Source: Lachnospiraceae bacterium
GTDB lineage: Bacteria; Bacteroidota; Bacteroidia; Bacteroidales; Muribaculaceae
Length of the DNA stretch: 43,526 nucleotides
Assembly (NCBI GenBank): GCA_023663655.1
Contig: JAMPGZ010000021.1
Span: forward strand, 1 to 43,526
Reading direction: 5' to 3'
Shown: piece after piece, positions 30,431 through 37,847 of the stretch
Layout of the letters: each line of letters starts with the position of its first letter
Numbering within the stretch: position 1 is the first letter of the stretch
The notes under the pieces: generated by a model
The model's input: the letters and a program-made list of their open reading frames with translations, nothing else
Database searches by the model: none
Told to the model about the DNA's origin: nothing
Made by a program: the position numbers and the translations under genes

Positions 30431-33400
30431 TTAAAGTCCTTTTCCATGACAATTCTTATACTTTTTGCCCGATCCGCATGGACATGGATCATTTCTTCCC
30501 ACCTTCGGTCCGTTGACTATCGGTTGCGTACGCTGATGCTCTCCCTGAGGAGCTGAAGCGGCTTGACGCTGTGCATCGGCGCCGGGATAAGTTTCCTTGC
30601 TTGCTTTATAGCGGCTATAGTCATTGGGGCGTTCCGGAAGAGCTTCTTTCATTTGAGGGCGCGGCGGTTGCTGCGGTTCTTCCTTCCGTTCTGAACTAAG
30701 CTGAGCGTCAGAAGCACGCTGAGGCTGCGGTTGCGGAATATATATCTGTCCTCTCAACAATGCCGAAGCTGCCTTGACATTAAGAGTGTTCATAGCGTTT
30801 TCAAACAAGTGGAAGGACTCTACCTTATAAATCACAAGCGGATCCTTCTGCTCATAGGACGCATTTTGAACCGACTGGCGCAATTGGTCAAGCTCACGAA
30901 GATGCTCTTTCCACACTTCGTCGATGGTCACGAGCATGATAGCCTTATGCCATTCCTTGATTATCGATTTGCATTCAGTGCGATAAGCTTCCTCTATGTC
31001 GGCAGGGATATTGAACACTCTCTTTCCATCAGTGATAGGAACGAGAATCTTACCCTTCGCTTCTTTATTCTCAACAAGATCCTTGATGACAGGCATTGCG
31101 ATTTCAACAATGCGTTCGCTCTTGCGTCGGAATGCCTCGTTGACTTCAGCATGAACACGGTCGAATGCTTCCTGATGTGACATCTTACGGAACTCATCGT
31201 CGGTGAACGGAGTCTCAATAGCAAATACCTTGAGAAGCTCCATTGTCAAATCGGGATATGTGTCAGGGGAATCATAGGTATTCACAATATTTTCTACTGT
31301 GTCATAGAGCATATTGTTGATGTCAATACCTACACGTTCACCCATCAATGCATGAAGTCGTCTGCCATAAATATATTGACGCTGTTTATTCATCACATCG
31401 TCATATTCCAACAAACGCTTACGGATTCCGAAGTTGTTCTCTTCCACACGCTTCTGTGCGTTTTCGATGGCACGGTTCACCATCTTGGATTCGATCATCT
31501 CTCCCTCCTTCACGCCAAGGGTGTCGAGCATCTTGGTAACACGGTCACCGGCAAAAAGACGCATCAACTGATCCTCAAACGACAGGAAGAACACTGATGA
31601 ACCCGGGTCGCCTTGACGGCCTGAACGTCCGCGCAACTGGCGGTCGACACGACGTGACTCATGGCGCTCTGTACCGATGATGGCAAGACCTCCCGCATCC
31701 TTAACCTCGGCAGGGAGCTTGATGTCGGTACCACGACCTGCCATATTGGTTGCGATTGTAACAGTACCTTTCTTACCTGCCTGAGCCACGATGTCAGCCT
31801 CCTTTTGGTGCAACTTCGCATTAAGCACATTGTGAGGGATGTGACGCAAGGTGAGCATTCTTGACAATAATTCGGAAATATCAACCGAAGTAGTACCAAC
31901 CAACACCGGACGACCCTGGCTGACAAGTTCCACAATCTCATCGATGACAGCCGCATATTTCTCCTTCTTGGTGCGATATACGCGGTCGTTCATGTCAATT
32001 CGAGCCACAGGCTTGTTGGTGGGGATAGTCACCACATCAAGTTTGTAGATATCCCAGAATTCACCGGCTTCAGTCTCGGCTGTACCGGTCATTCCCGCAA
32101 GTTTGTGATACATACGGAAATAGTTCTGCAAGGTGATAGTTGCGAAAGTCTGAGTCGCTGCCTCTACTTTCACACCCTCTTTGGCTTCAATAGCCTGATG
32201 GAGTCCGTCGGAGTAGCGGCGACCCTCCATGATACGTCCGGTCTGCTCGTCTACGATCTTGATTTTATTGTCGTCTATCACATATTCAACGTCCTTTTCA
32301 AACAGGGTGTATGCCTTCAGCAACTGGTTTACAGTGTGCACACGCTCCGCCTTAACAGCATAGTTCTGCATGAGGTCGTCCTTACGCTGCTGACGATCGG
32401 CAGGAGAAAGCGAATCATCACCCTCCACTTCCGACAATTGTGAAGCGATATCAGGCAACACAAAGAATTGCGGATCCTGGCTGCTGCCTGTCAGCTCATC
32501 AATACCCTTATCGGTGAGTTCTACCGAACGATTCTTCTCGTCAATCACGAAATAAAGCGGTTCGACAGCTTTAGGCATTTCGCGGCTGTTATCCTGAAGA
32601 TAGTATGCCTCAGTGTCAAGCAACAATGGCTTGATGCCGTCTTGTGAAAGATATTTGATGAGCGGTCCGTTTTTCGGCAAACCTTTGTAAGCACGGAACA
32701 ACTGGAGGGCACCCTCTTTTCTCACTTCCTTATCTGAGCTTGCGATTTTCTCTTTAGCATCAAGAAGCAGTCGTGCCACAAGCTTGCGCTGAGCCTCAAA
32801 TACCTTCTCTACATTATGTTTGTAGTCATTGAACAGCTGATCCTCGCCTTTAGGCACAGGACCTGATATGATAAGCGGTGTACGGGCATCGTCAATAAGC
32901 ACCGAGTCAACCTCGTCGACAATAGCATAATAATGCTTGCGCTGCACGAGATCTTGCGGAGACATAGCCATATTGTCACGCAGATAGTCGAAACCAAATT
33001 CATTGTTGGTACCGAAAGTGATGTCACATGCATAAGCTCTGCGACGTGATTCAGAGTTGGGTTGATGCTTGTCGATACAATCCACAGTCTGTCCGTGGAA
33101 CATATATAGCGGTCCCATCCATTCCGAGTCTCGTTTTGACAAATAGTCGTTGACAGTAACCACATGAACACCTCGACCGGTCAATGAGCGAAGGAATACC
33201 GGAAGAGTCGCAACGAGAGTCTTACCCTCACCTGTCGCCATCTCGGCAATCTTGCCCTGATGTAGCACAATACCGCCGATCAACTGCACGTCATAATGCA
33301 CCATGTCCCAGGTCACCTCGTTTCCTCCGGCAATCCAGTGGTTCTTGTATATAGCCTTATCGCCTTCGATTGTGACAAAATCCTTGCCTGCGGCAGCCAG

Positions 33401-33811
33401 ATCGCGATCCATCTGCGATGCAGTCACTTCCACAGTTTCATTGGCAGCGAATCGTGCAGCAGTCTCACGCATAGCGGCAAATACTGTGGGAAGCACTCGA
33501 TCAAGCTCCTTCTCGTATACTTCGAGTATATTCTTCTCGCGGCTATCGATATCGTCCCACAACGGCTGACGCTCGTCAAACGGAAGTTCCTCAATCTTTT
33601 CCTTCAATTCAGCAATCGCCTTGGTATCGTCGGCTACAGCATCCTGAAGTTCTTTTTTTATGTTGGTAATCACATCACGCAATTCATCATTGGAAAGCTC
33701 CTTCATTTTAGGTCCAAGAGCATTGATCTGATCAACAATCGGCTGGATTTCTTTAAGGTCGCGCTGCGATTTATTGCCGAAAAGTTTATTTAATATAGTA
33801 GTTAATGACAT
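30431..33811 (-). CDS. secA: Preprotein translocase ATPase SecA
   Basis: SecA drives preproteins through SecYEG. The 1126-residue product is longer than E. coli SecA (901 aa), as usual in Bacteroidetes. Seen: Walker [10 protein letters not shown] (about residue 190), the DEAD-type box [19 protein letters not shown], the helicase segment [17 protein letters not shown], and a C-terminal SEC-C zinc motif [14 protein letters not shown]. The region about 1045-1095 is a proline/glutamine-rich linker of low complexity. It lies 45 bp downstream of the alkaline-phosphatase-fold gene on the same strand, and the whole ilvA to secA block may form one transcript. Proteins that pass through SecA include the lipoproteins that Lnb-type enzymes modify. 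Confidence 0.96.
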
Positions 33812-33856: not shown

Positions 33857-35473
33857 TCACTTCTTCTCCAAAGCCAATGGAGGCAGATCGGCTGCATTGG
33901 GCGATCTTATTCGGAGCAGACGCGCCACGGTCGGAGCAATGGAGCGTGCATCAATCTCTTCAATTATTCTCGTAGGCTTCAGCACGGGAGAGAACAAAAA
34001 CACCGGAGCGGTCATAATTCCGCTGCGCACCGTTGTGCGTACTTCCTTGGCGCTGACAGGATCAATCTCAATAATCTCCCATCCCGGAGTGATTGCAAGC
34101 AAGAGGTCTCCGGCGAAATCCACATTAGTGTTGCGTTTCAGGGCTGCCGCGTTGTTTCCGGCACGTCCGGCAATGACATCATCAATAGTCCATACTCCGC
34201 TCACACCACTCATGCGTGTCAAGAAATCGGCAGCTTCCGCTCTCATTGCGGCAAGATCCAATCCACGCTCCTGAATCAACTTCCTGTTCAGGAACAGTTG
34301 ACTGTCATGATAGCCTGCGACCCACTCTTCATTGCCGTATTTGGCAACAAAATACATATTCAACAGCGAAATCGCACGCTTCGGGATAAATTCACCATTG
34401 GGGATACCCCACTTTTCATCGTCACGCTTATTTCCGGGTGCCGATGGGGTTCCGGCGAGCATGACAAATGTATTTTCAAGACCTACTTTATTGTCTATGA
34501 TCTGGAACAACCGCTCAAGATCCTTGTCAAGACGCAAGTAGCTATCCATGGTCTCAATGCGATTATCGGCATCCTTAGCTGCAATAAAAGGAGCAAGCGT
34601 ATAACCGAGATTCAGCATATCCATGGCATCGTGATTGCCAAGCTGCAGACCGTTGATATAATCCCCTGCGATATCTGTTATTTCCGTGTTCACAGGACCT
34701 GAGGTCTTGTAATTTCGGAATCGGTTGATATCGTTGTGCTGGAAAAGATATCTGAAAGGATAATATTTCTTGTAAGCCGGCAGATCGGGATATTTCTCAG
34801 GAGCAAGCAACGGACGCCAAGTCAAGGTGTCGAGACGCACTGACAAGGGCTTGGAATGGTTCCTGCCCTGAACCGGAAGCGGCATCTCCTTATAATAAGT
34901 GGATGTAGACCATTTTCCGGTAACATCATTTATCCACAACGCGCTGTTTCCTGCATGACCAGCCATAACAATGGACTGAGGAGCAGAAGGAGCGATGGAA
35001 TATACATTTCCAAATCCGGCACCGTCGATACGCACTTCGTCAGAGACAGTGCTTACGGTTATCGCCTTGGGTGTGAATGTATCATCAGTGAAATTGCCGA
35101 GTTGGGAGTGGTCAAGCACTACGGGAAAACTCCTTTTGTGATCGGAGTCGTAGACTACAGAAGCAGGAATGCCGTTGACCGCCGGAGAGGTGCCGCTATA
35201 AACCATTGCCGTGGCAGCCGTCGCATCCATGAATGTGCCATAATTCACATTCTCAAGCATCACGCCTTCCTGCATGAGCCTGTTAAACCCGCCTTCTCCA
35301 AAATATCCCTTCAGCAAGTCGAGATAATCTTCGCGCAATCCGTCAATCATTATGCCCACCACCAGCTTAGGTCGTGACACAGGGGGCTGCCCGACAACGG
35401 TCAAAGTGACCATTGACGCCAGCAACACTGACAGCAATCGACGGGTTAAATGCGGTTCGTTAGTTTTAAGCAT
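33857..35473 (-). CDS. Alkaline-phosphatase-fold protein, probable pseudoenzyme
   Basis: The 538-residue protein has a signal peptide (about 1-28, VVGQ) and the alkaline phosphatase/phosphodiesterase fold of the PafA type: VGIMIDGLREDYL with Asp44 kept, GGFNRLMQEGVM, GTSPAVNGI, STSTYYKEMP, DSYLRLDKDL and a C-terminal IAPTVARLLRI. The active-site positions differ from what I recall of PafA. The nucleophile Thr is Ala84 (Thr85 is next), the following Gly-His is Ala87-Thr88, the Asp/His metal pair in TDYxGH is Pro295/Ala299, the ADHG pair is Thr342/Pro343, and the last His is Thr. The Lys/Arg substrate contacts are Ser163/Pro165. If right, it cannot bind two zincs. It overlaps the Lnb-like gene by 28 bp. 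Confidence 0.82.
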   Translation of the reverse strand: MLKTNEPHLTRRLLSVLLASMVTLTVVGQPPVSRPKLVVGIMIDGLREDYLDLLKGYFGEGGFNRLMQEGVMLENVNYGTFMDATAATAMVYSGTSPAVNGIPASVVYDSDHKRSFPVVLDHSQLGNFTDDTFTPKAITVSTVSDEVRIDGAGFGNVYSIAPSAPQSIVMAGHAGNSALWINDVTGKWSTSTYYKEMPLPVQGRNHSKPLSVRLDTLTWRPLLAPEKYPDLPAYKKYYPFRYLFQHNDINRFRNYKTSGPVNTEITDIAGDYINGLQLGNHDAMDMLNLGYTLAPFIAAKDADNRIETMDSYLRLDKDLERLFQIIDNKVGLENTFVMLAGTPSAPGNKRDDEKWGIPNGEFIPKRAISLLNMYFVAKYGNEEWVAGYHDSQLFLNRKLIQERGLDLAAMRAEAADFLTRMSGVSGVWTIDDVIAGRAGNNAAALKRNTNVDFAGDLLLAITPGWEIIEIDPVSAKEVRTTVRSGIMTAPVFLFSPVLKPTRIIEEIDARSIAPTVARLLRIRSPNAADLPPLALEKK

Positions 35474-36642
35474 CGTGTGATATATAAATATCTTATAGTA
35501 AGTATGGCATCGGCAAGTATCAGCGGAATAAATGCGGCATTACCCGACTGTCCTGACCAAAGCCACAACATACTTAACAAAAATAATGCCACAAAGTTAA
35601 CAATTCCATACAATTTTACCAACTTACGACAACTTTTTATATATATGAATGCCGGAACAATCAGGCACAACGGATTGAGCCATAGCAACAACCAGTTAGG
35701 AGAAGTCGCTTCATGCTCGGAAACAAACACCAGAAAAGTTATCAACAATCCCGCTATGCCATAGACTCCGAAAACGACAGCATCAACCCAACGTGTCACT
35801 TTCATCAATTTCAAGTCATGCACGGTGACAAAAATGACCAATAGCAATACTGCAATACTGACAGCTAAAGGTGTCATCCACCATGGCGTAACCTCTGCCA
35901 AATCACCGCGTGACGGCAGAATCACCGAGGTTGATGAAGAGATGCCGTTGTCTTCTATCATTTCCATCAGAATCATCGGGACAAAGGCTTTATCTCTGTC
36001 GCTTATAGGGTAATCTATGCCGCTTCCCAATGCCAAATCAATGCCAAACTGGTACCACGGATAAGCAGAATGATAATGACGCATCGCATCACGGAAGGTC
36101 CATCCGGAGGTATAACTTCTGGCGTTGAGCGCAAGTGTGTCGCCAATCGCACGCTCAATCATCACCAATGGACGCGTCGCGCAATTGTCCTTTACATAAT
36201 TATATCTGTAGGTTCTGTTTTCAGGCTTAAGATTCTCATCCAAAAGTTCAATGAGACGCAACGCCGCATCAGCAGGAATATCAAGCGGCTGTTCATAGAC
36301 AGCCCTTCCGGCACGGGCATATTGCCTCAGGAAATAGTCAAACGGAGCGGCACCTACCATGTAATCGGTTTCACCTTTTACAAAACGGTAAACGAAATTG
36401 GGTGCGTCGAAATCAAACAACCCATAGTTAACCGCCACGTCAGCTCCATTGTAACGCACACGCAGAGCCGTGTGACCCTCAAGCTCATATATATCAGAGC
36501 CGGGGCCACACGTAATAAGACTTATGCGAGGCGTTTCAACGGAAGGAGCATCAATCTGTCGATCAGAACCGATCGCCTTTATTCCTGAAAGCACAAAAAA
36601 CAGTGCCACCAACAGACAACGAAAAGTCAGGTTCACGCTCAT
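35446..36642 (-). CDS. lnb: DUF4105 membrane protein, Lnb-type lipoprotein N-acyltransferase
   Basis: The 398-residue protein has a signal anchor/signal peptide (about 1-25), a periplasmic DUF4105 domain (about 38-250) and at least five transmembrane helices at the C-terminus. Conserved residues of the domain are seen: His57 in ELEGHTALRV, FVKGETDYMVG, and Cys154 in YVKDNCATRP, which look like a papain-type Cys/His pair. This family was reported as Lnb, which adds the third acyl chain to lipoproteins in Bacteroides (from memory). Lipoproteins abound in Bacteroidales and lnt is often absent. It starts on the ATGA overlap with ilvA and overlaps the phosphatase-like gene. The assignment of substrate is inference. 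Confidence 0.78.
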   Translation of the reverse strand: MSVNLTFRCLLVALFFVLSGIKAIGSDRQIDAPSVETPRISLITCGPGSDIYELEGHTALRVRYNGADVAVNYGLFDFDAPNFVYRFVKGETDYMVGAAPFDYFLRQYARAGRAVYEQPLDIPADAALRLIELLDENLKPENRTYRYNYVKDNCATRPLVMIERAIGDTLALNARSYTSGWTFRDAMRHYHSAYPWYQFGIDLALGSGIDYPISDRDKAFVPMILMEMIEDNGISSSTSVILPSRGDLAEVTPWWMTPLAVSIAVLLLVIFVTVHDLKLMKVTRWVDAVVFGVYGIAGLLITFLVFVSEHEATSPNWLLLWLNPLCLIVPAFIYIKSCRKLVKLYGIVNFVALFLLSMLWLWSGQSGNAAFIPLILADAILTIRYLYITRCLKLTNRI

Positions 36643-37847
36643 TTCTCCACGAGATAACCTGCTTCAGTAAGTTCCTTCTTGATTATCTCGATATGTTCAT
36701 GGTTGCGTGTCTCCATCACAATTCTCAATGTGCAGCTTGTGATGGGAGTATCCACGCTTATGCGTTCATGAGTTACAGAAATTATATTTCCGCCGAGTCT
36801 TCCTATCGTTTCACACACATTGGCTAGCACACCCGGTTTATCAGAGAGATCGATTGTGACAACATAGTTACGTCCGCTCTTGAGCAATCCGCGGTTTATG
36901 ACACGGCTCAAAATCGTCACGTCAATATTTCCACCCGAAACAAGACACACAGTCTTCTTTCCCTTGATCGGAACTTTATTGAACATCGCGGCAGCAACAG
37001 CCACGGCACCGGCGCCTTCAGCCACAAGTTTCTGCTGTTCCATCATCGCCAAAATAGCAGCCGATGTTTCATCATCGCTCACGGTAACTATTCCGTCGAC
37101 ATATCTGCGACAAAGGTCAAATGTATTGTCACCCGGCTCTTTTACCGCGATTCCGTCGGCAACGGTAGCAACATTGGGCAGACACTTTATCTCATTGCCG
37201 GCTATCGACTCAACCATGCTCGCGGCTCCGGCGGCTTGAACGCCGTACACCTTCACATCAGGACGTATTGATTTTATAGCGTATGCCACTCCTGAAATCA
37301 AGCCGCCACCGCCTACCGGGACGATAACCACGTCAACATCAGGCATTTCATCAAGAATCTCAAGTCCGATGGTTCCTTGTCCGGCAATCACAAGCGGATC
37401 ATTGAAAGGATGCACGAAAGTATATCCGCACTCATCCCTCATTTCAATAGCTTTCTTATATGCGTCGTCATACACACCCGGCACAAGGCACACTTCCGCT
37501 CCAAGCTTGCGTGTCGCCTCAACCTTAGATATAGGCGCGCCTTCAGGCAGGCATATTATAGCTTTGATTCCATTGGCACGTGCTCCGAGCGCAACACCTT
37601 GGGCATGATTTCCTGCTGAACACGCAATAACTCCGTGAGCCTTTTCCTCGTCGGACAACTGAGATATCTTATAGTAGGCACCTCTTAACTTAAACGAACC
37701 GGTGTGCTGGAGGCATTCCGGCTTCAGATATACGTCACTCTCGGGATTAATTTTCGGAGCGGCTATAAGCTCCGTATGTTTTACAACACCCTTCAGTACA
37801 TGAGCGGCACGATAGACATCGCTCAAAGACAATATTTCTTTCTGCAT
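36639..37847 (-). CDS. ilvA: Threonine ammonia-lyase (threonine deaminase)
   Basis: The PLP enzyme converts threonine to 2-oxobutanoate and ammonia, the first step of isoleucine synthesis. The 402-residue product has the PLP-lysine motif TGSFKLRGAY (Lys53), CSAGNHAQGVA, the glycine loop PVGGGGLISG and a C-terminal ACT domain (about 325-400, IDLSDKPGVLANVCETIGRLGG). With one ACT-like domain and 402 residues it resembles the short form, so feedback may differ from E. coli IlvA. It is first in the minus-strand block and divergent from pyrE. Confidence 0.93.
   Translation of the reverse strand: MQKEILSLSDVYRAAHVLKGVVKHTELIAAPKINPESDVYLKPECLQHTGSFKLRGAYYKISQLSDEEKAHGVIACSAGNHAQGVALGARANGIKAIICLPEGAPISKVEATRKLGAEVCLVPGVYDDAYKKAIEMRDECGYTFVHPFNDPLVIAGQGTIGLEILDEMPDVDVVIVPVGGGGLISGVAYAIKSIRPDVKVYGVQAAGAASMVESIAGNEIKCLPNVATVADGIAVKEPGDNTFDLCRRYVDGIVTVSDDETSAAILAMMEQQKLVAEGAGAVAVAAAMFNKVPIKGKKTVCLVSGGNIDVTILSRVINRGLLKSGRNYVVTIDLSDKPGVLANVCETIGRLGGNIISVTHERISVDTPITSCTLRIVMETRNHEHIEIIKKELTEAGYLVEK

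Follow-up and report, generated by a model that had tools for sequence, protein, structure and literature searches.

Bacteroides rely heavily on surface lipoproteins. Staphylococcus aureus has a two-component system for lipoprotein N-acylation (PMC7387801), which shows that this modification can depend on the products of two genes. The S. aureus components, LnsA and LnsB, belong to gene families other than those of Lnb and of the phosphatase-like protein described here. Lnb, a recently identified enzyme, adds the third acyl chain to Bacteroides lipoproteins (PMC12994826, PMC12345273), and it is a member of the permuted NlpC/P60 group, which has a catalytic His and Cys (PMC12994826). The word "phosphatase" has 0 occurrences in the main text of PMC12994826, and the parts of that paper considered here concern Lnb itself, not a phosphatase-like neighbor. 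Neither an account of such a neighbor nor a partnership between Lnb and a pseudoenzyme of a known family was found in print, in a search whose scope excluded the Lnb discovery paper (PNAS 2024, e2410909121). In enterobacteria, the periplasmic domain of YejM/PbgA (LapC) works in LPS control apparently without properly placed catalytic residues, according to part of one report (PMC7773988), and this protein is the closest functional parallel to the pseudo-phosphatase described below. Dead-enzyme calls nevertheless need an assay, as the title of another paper recalls: "The essential inner membrane protein YejM is a metalloenzyme" (PMC7576196). YejM has five membrane helices of its own, resembles LtaS-type enzymes more closely and has its effect on LpxC control, whereas the protein described here belongs to the PafA branch and is secreted as a chain of its own, encoded beside lnb. 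A PafA survey retained only PafA sequences with the key residues (PMC8812569), and its gut PafA counts should therefore exclude the lnb-linked dead clade.

The window, which is the whole 43,526-nucleotide stretch of DNA analyzed, contains a run of minus-strand genes in the following order: a PLP-dependent enzyme with a C-terminal ACT domain (36639..37847), which we take to be threonine dehydratase-like; lnb (35446..36642; 398 aa); a PafA-like gene (33857..35473; 538 aa); and secA (30431..33811; 1126 aa). The PLP/ACT gene shares 4 nt with the start of lnb, the overlap of lnb with the PafA-like gene is 28 nt, and a gap of 45 nt precedes the secA start, in agreement with the initial annotation, which had described an overlap with the Lnb-like gene and a distance of 45 bp to secA. 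The PafA-like protein begins with a hydrophobic signal sequence (residues 1–29; 35387..35473, minus strand) without a lipobox, and none of the 82 N-terminal sequences examined from linked homologues matched a lipobox pattern. In the predicted model, one N-terminal helix (residues 7–26) precedes the domain, and the YejM-type five-helix membrane domain is absent. A search of the window's own genome (2.9 Mb, 45 contigs) revealed no second PafA homologue. The six nearest loci in the named collection, with 64–91% identity, carry the labels Bacteroides sp., Bacteroidales bacterium, Barnesiella sp. WM24, Muribaculum and Muribaculaceae.

The neighboring Lnb-type lipoprotein N-acyltransferase, which is the proposed partner, contains the Lnb_N and 5TMH_Lnb domains and is of the same family as Lnb of Bacteroides (DUF4105; Pfam Lnb_N, 5TMH_Lnb). 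Its permuted NlpC/P60 core is intact at His57 and Cys154; in an alignment of 151 Lnb rows, the His is conserved in 150 and the Cys in all 151. Since these residues match the catalytic pair, the gene pair appears to combine a live enzyme with a dead one. The NCBIfam Lnb model NF051878 scored the window Lnb at 327.5 bits, below the equivalog cut-off of 550. This model had matches in 152 of 295 Bacteroidales genomes and its cut-off was passed in only three, so many Lnb genes probably go without that name in annotations. The Lnb proteins above the cut-off were those of G088, G179 and G255 (family f53), as was that of the control Bacteroides ihuae, from which we infer that f53 is the family of Bacteroides; in all three genomes (L074–L076), the dead version lies between lnb and secA.

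A profile match and a confident predicted model agreed that the PafA fold spans the whole length of the pseudo-phosphatase, in line with the PafA-like fold named in the initial annotation. The window protein is thus predicted to share the fold of PafA alkaline phosphatase (PDB 5tj3), but 9 of 10 catalytic or metal-binding residues are replaced and this type of gene is linked to lnb; its score against the NCBIfam PafA equivalog NF042991 was 240.3 bits, below the cut-off of 650. Similarity-based annotation can give genes of this clade the label "alkaline phosphatase" despite the missing catalytic site.

Ten PafA residues were scored: D38, T79, N100, K162, R164, D305, H309, D352, H353 and H486. 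From the two-zinc ligand set, which we take to be D38, D305, H309, D352, H353 and H486, the window protein retains only D38 (as D44). Nucleophile T79 is replaced by Ala84 (35222..35224), and N100, K162 and R164 by S105, S163 and P165. Pro295 (34589..34591) and Ala299 (34577..34579) occupy the places of D305 and H309, Thr342-Pro343 (34445..34450) that of D352-H353, and Arg479 (34037..34039) that of H486, all on the minus strand; the aligners differ by a residue or two in this last placement, and residues 470–489 contain no His. Misalignment hiding shifted ligands was rejected, as MAFFT, HMMER and profile–profile hhalign agreed at D305, H309, D352 and H353, and MAFFT and hhalign agreed at T79. 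The initial annotation, which had stated that almost all catalytic residues were replaced while the fold and Asp44 were kept, was correct in its substitutions at Ala84, Ser163/Pro165, Pro295/Ala299 and Thr342/Pro343, but its assignment of the last His to Thr was off by one conserved histidine.

This loss is shared across the lnb-linked clade. Among 97 scored loci with a homologue adjoining or fused to lnb, each from a separate genome or record, 15 retained 0/10 site residues, 62 retained 1/10, 19 retained 2/10 and one retained 3/10; no intact site was present at any of them. T79, K162, R164, D305 and D352 were never retained, H353 and H486 were each retained once, H309 twice, N100 in 19 and D38 in 80. 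Before this count, we dropped L002 (the window itself), L009, L013 and L014 (each on a contig already represented by L005, L007 or L006) and L004, an assumed near relative of L003 that scores 1/10. All 38 comparison loci, which were best-scoring or hand-picked rather than randomly drawn (34 outside Bacteroidales and 4 Bacteroidales second copies), retained 10/10; matches in the class-level search came from 171 of 247 genomes, of which a minority were scored. A sequencing or assembly accident was rejected because equal losses occurred in 97/97 loci. G038, G255 and G327 carry the dead copy together with an intact 10/10 copy elsewhere (L113, L279 and L285), and we rejected the idea of a relic in genomes that had lost PafA. 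Judged by its sequence, the window protein is, with strong support, a phosphatase look-alike without catalytic residues.

A careful 69-row tree united the lnb-linked proteins and those of family f37 in one clade (support 100/100), and the window protein lies inside this clade of pseudo-phosphatases, which have 0–3 of 10 site residues beside lnb. A larger clade including Bacteroidales proteins from other loci was also supported at 100/100, and those other proteins were not resolved as one group. Clade members now apart from lnb are f37 and f26 proteins and, in a quick tree, L110.

The predicted fold, the clade-wide residue loss, the strong purifying selection, the moved conservation and the linkage or fusion to Lnb are best explained by recruitment of a dead PafA-type phosphatase as a non-catalytic periplasmic partner of Lnb, with a proposed docking via residues 364–389 or R521/R523. 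We consider this reading likely, and the pseudo-phosphatase is probably a working part of the Lnb lipoprotein machine. On this reading, the protein would bind Lnb physically through such an interface and would have a regulatory or scaffold role.

Linkage to lnb is close. The spacing between lnb and the phosphatase-like gene ranged from −40 to 199 nt (115 two-gene rows, duplicates included), and the two genes overlap, by the chosen start codons, in 60 of 81 linked loci. Matches to the window protein were found in 181 of 295 Bacteroidales genomes. Among the matches listed, 107 genomes have both genes, within 4 kb in 52 and apart in 55; this count takes one listed place per genome, covers 149 of 152 Lnb genomes and 150 of 181 phosphatase genomes, and includes G312 (approximate place) and G247, which were added by hand. 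Among the matches listed, many of the 55 unlinked genomes carry an other-locus or sister-group protein rather than a member of the lnb-linked clade. Contig breaks may conceal further links; G283 was counted as unlinked, yet its contig C8 has part of lnb adjoining the gene (L083).

The pseudo-phosphatase could alternatively be a general periplasmic export or envelope-assembly factor, with the lnb–secA run inherited as a block and no contact with Lnb. Consistent with this, secA lies within the fetched stretch in 78 of 82 lnb-linked loci, and the f26 gene is apart from lnb and adjoins secA in G061. Family f37 speaks on both sides. Among its 101 genomes searched, 95 had a match: both genes were unlinked by listed place in 26 of the 101, which favors a general factor, whereas 22 had two-gene neighbors, 9 had one open frame holding both halves and 4 more had one match running through one stop. 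No SecA was found within 1.5 kb (less at contig ends) in 30 fetched f37 loci, including all 16 that are lnb pairs or fusions, nor in f37 loci L090, L098 and L158, which were fetched wider. Furthermore, the fusions involve Lnb, and the partial correlations of pairwise distances were 0.68 with Lnb and 0.32 with SecA (76 loci), in a test in which a SecA fragment served as the species control and the permutation null ignores ancestry, and in which shared operon position and ancestry alone can raise the correlation. SecA as the main partner is thus weakened, and Lnb is favored mainly because the f37 pairs and fusions have no SecA nearby. We therefore regard a general factor as improbable. The initial annotation had suggested a partner, sensor or scaffold in lipoprotein maturation or export; the first part is strengthened by lnb linkage across many families, secA-free lnb pairs and recurrent Lnb fusions, while the export part is weaker, as the frequent secA neighbor of the linked loci is missing from the fetched f37 loci.

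In the 9 f37 fusions, both halves were recognized by HMMs built from the loci fetched in this analysis. The frames are 899–956 aa long (1042 in one listing for G423), the fusions are known from open frames, and the fusion proteins of G072 and G342 are identical. Six genera are represented among the fusions, which lie on two distinct branches of the quick tree; at least three changes between fused and not fused are required there, meaning either that fusion occurred more than once or that a fused gene split again. Each fusion retains a signal-peptide-like hydrophobic stretch between the halves, as judged by eye. Such a stretch would be expected if Lnb's final helix has its end on the cytoplasmic side, so that the second domain has to return to the periplasm. 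Like YejM, these fusions unite membrane helices and a phosphatase-like domain in one chain. The f37 proteins scored, including those apart from lnb, are dead too; the latter must act, if at all, in trans. In two fusions, L211:1441-4308(+) and L214:1486-4275(-), the Lnb half is joined to the pseudo-phosphatase half by a His-rich linker.

Conservation has moved away from the old active site. From 42 intact PafA rows to 69 pseudo-clade rows, two sets of unlike make-up, the mean top-residue frequency fell from 0.73 to 0.42 at residues 290–309, from 0.72 to 0.49 at 330–349 and from 0.74 to 0.36 at 470–489, and rose from 0.41 to 0.72 at 370–389 and from 0.39 to 0.56 at 410–429. Residues with gained conservation include F58, F362, L370, N372, Y374, A377, W384, V385, R521 and R523. 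Because conservation was gained within residues 364–389 (34307..34384, minus strand) and the model predicts a helix (364–379) and a strand (385–389) there, this stretch is the best candidate binding surface; a second spot is R521-I522-R523 (33905..33913, minus strand), with R521 at 0.88 and R523 at 0.96 in the pseudo clade. The family clearly illustrates how conservation can leave an active site and reappear on a candidate binding surface.

These data also bear on the idea that the protein is a sensor whose emptied pocket binds a periplasmic ligand, such as a phosphate ester, a glycolipid or the head group of a lipid, and that it is only co-expressed with lnb. In favor of this, the D352 place is mostly Thr (72/97), the next position is mostly Gly or Pro (92/97) and D38 is largely retained; however, the active-site stretches lost conservation, unlike a conserved pocket, and fusions to Lnb occur. 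We find this idea improbable. Retained enzyme activity, based on a new metal site or on chemistry without metal, would fit the strong purifying selection, but at most 2 of the 7 nucleophile and metal-ligand positions are retained in any of the 97 loci and the gained-conservation residues contain no metal-ligand set, making it very improbable.

The phosphatase-like gene is more tightly constrained than its live neighbor. Its dN was below that of lnb in 21/21 pairs from the same two loci, which are partly non-independent, as several share a locus. In the 10 pairs computable for both genes, dN/dS was 0.015–0.079 for the phosphatase-like gene and 0.095–0.186 for lnb, and it was ≤0.084 for the former in all 12 computable pairs, where dS above about 1.5 is saturated. 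The view of the initial annotation that selection acts on something other than catalysis is strongly supported by this constraint and the relocated conservation. A decaying gene without function could have lost its catalytic residues, but these selection data, together with open frames across many families and the confident predicted model, make decay a negligible prospect.

If the pseudo-phosphatase is a partner of Lnb, an ancient PafA-type phosphatase would have lost its catalytic site in the ancestor of this Bacteroidales clade and been recruited as a non-catalytic periplasmic subunit or regulator. The signal peptide would export the protein, its full alkaline-phosphatase domain would fold, and it would dock on the periplasmic face of Lnb via the 364–389 helix–strand (or R521/R523). 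Once docked, it may stabilize Lnb, or present or sense substrates, either the phospholipid acyl donor or the diacylated lipoprotein. More tentatively, the final lipoprotein maturation of gut Bacteroidales might be a two-part machine of Lnb and a controlling dead phosphatase, for example one that senses phospholipid donor or lipoprotein load. If so, this would be the second alkaline-phosphatase fold, after YejM, turned envelope regulator, here on the lipoprotein branch. With a pseudoenzyme that evolves more slowly than lnb and has repeatedly become fused to it, the lipoprotein pathway would gain a component not studied so far.

Lnb also occurs without this protein. No homologue was found within 1.5 kb of Lnb in 20 fetched loci outside Bacteroidales, and a profile search found none in 4/4 genomes of family f61; in L155 and L156, the two f61 contexts fetched, lnb directly adjoins secA with no phosphatase-like gene between. 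Among 20 Lnb-bearing Bacteroidales genomes chosen for having no listed match, the profile found none in 19 and a weak match (E 5.9e-5) in the remaining one, G048. A reduced 1.2-Mb Bacteroidales genome, 99% complete (L161; G118), retains Lnb, and the profile search detected no phosphatase-like homologue in it. If it assists Lnb, the pseudo-phosphatase is a clade-specific, losable addition.

Relatives at other loci show partial decay. Another 36 Bacteroidales loci were scored whose fetched stretch lacks lnb: 3 retained 10/10 site residues, one retained 9/10 and 32 retained 0–5, and L088 alone was intact among the 18 other-locus proteins of the 69-row tree. As these relatives are mostly part-decayed, decay in the PafA branch began early or recurred and became complete in the lnb-linked clade. 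The other-locus proteins without an lnb found (L085–L119, L122 and L123; for example L085:4980-6641(-)) mostly score 0–5/10 and often keep T79, D352 and H353 with D38 changed to Glu; on these residues, they could be one-metal enzymes or another pseudoenzyme. Some of their neighbors, named by eye, resemble YchF, M14 carboxypeptidase and GGGP synthase.
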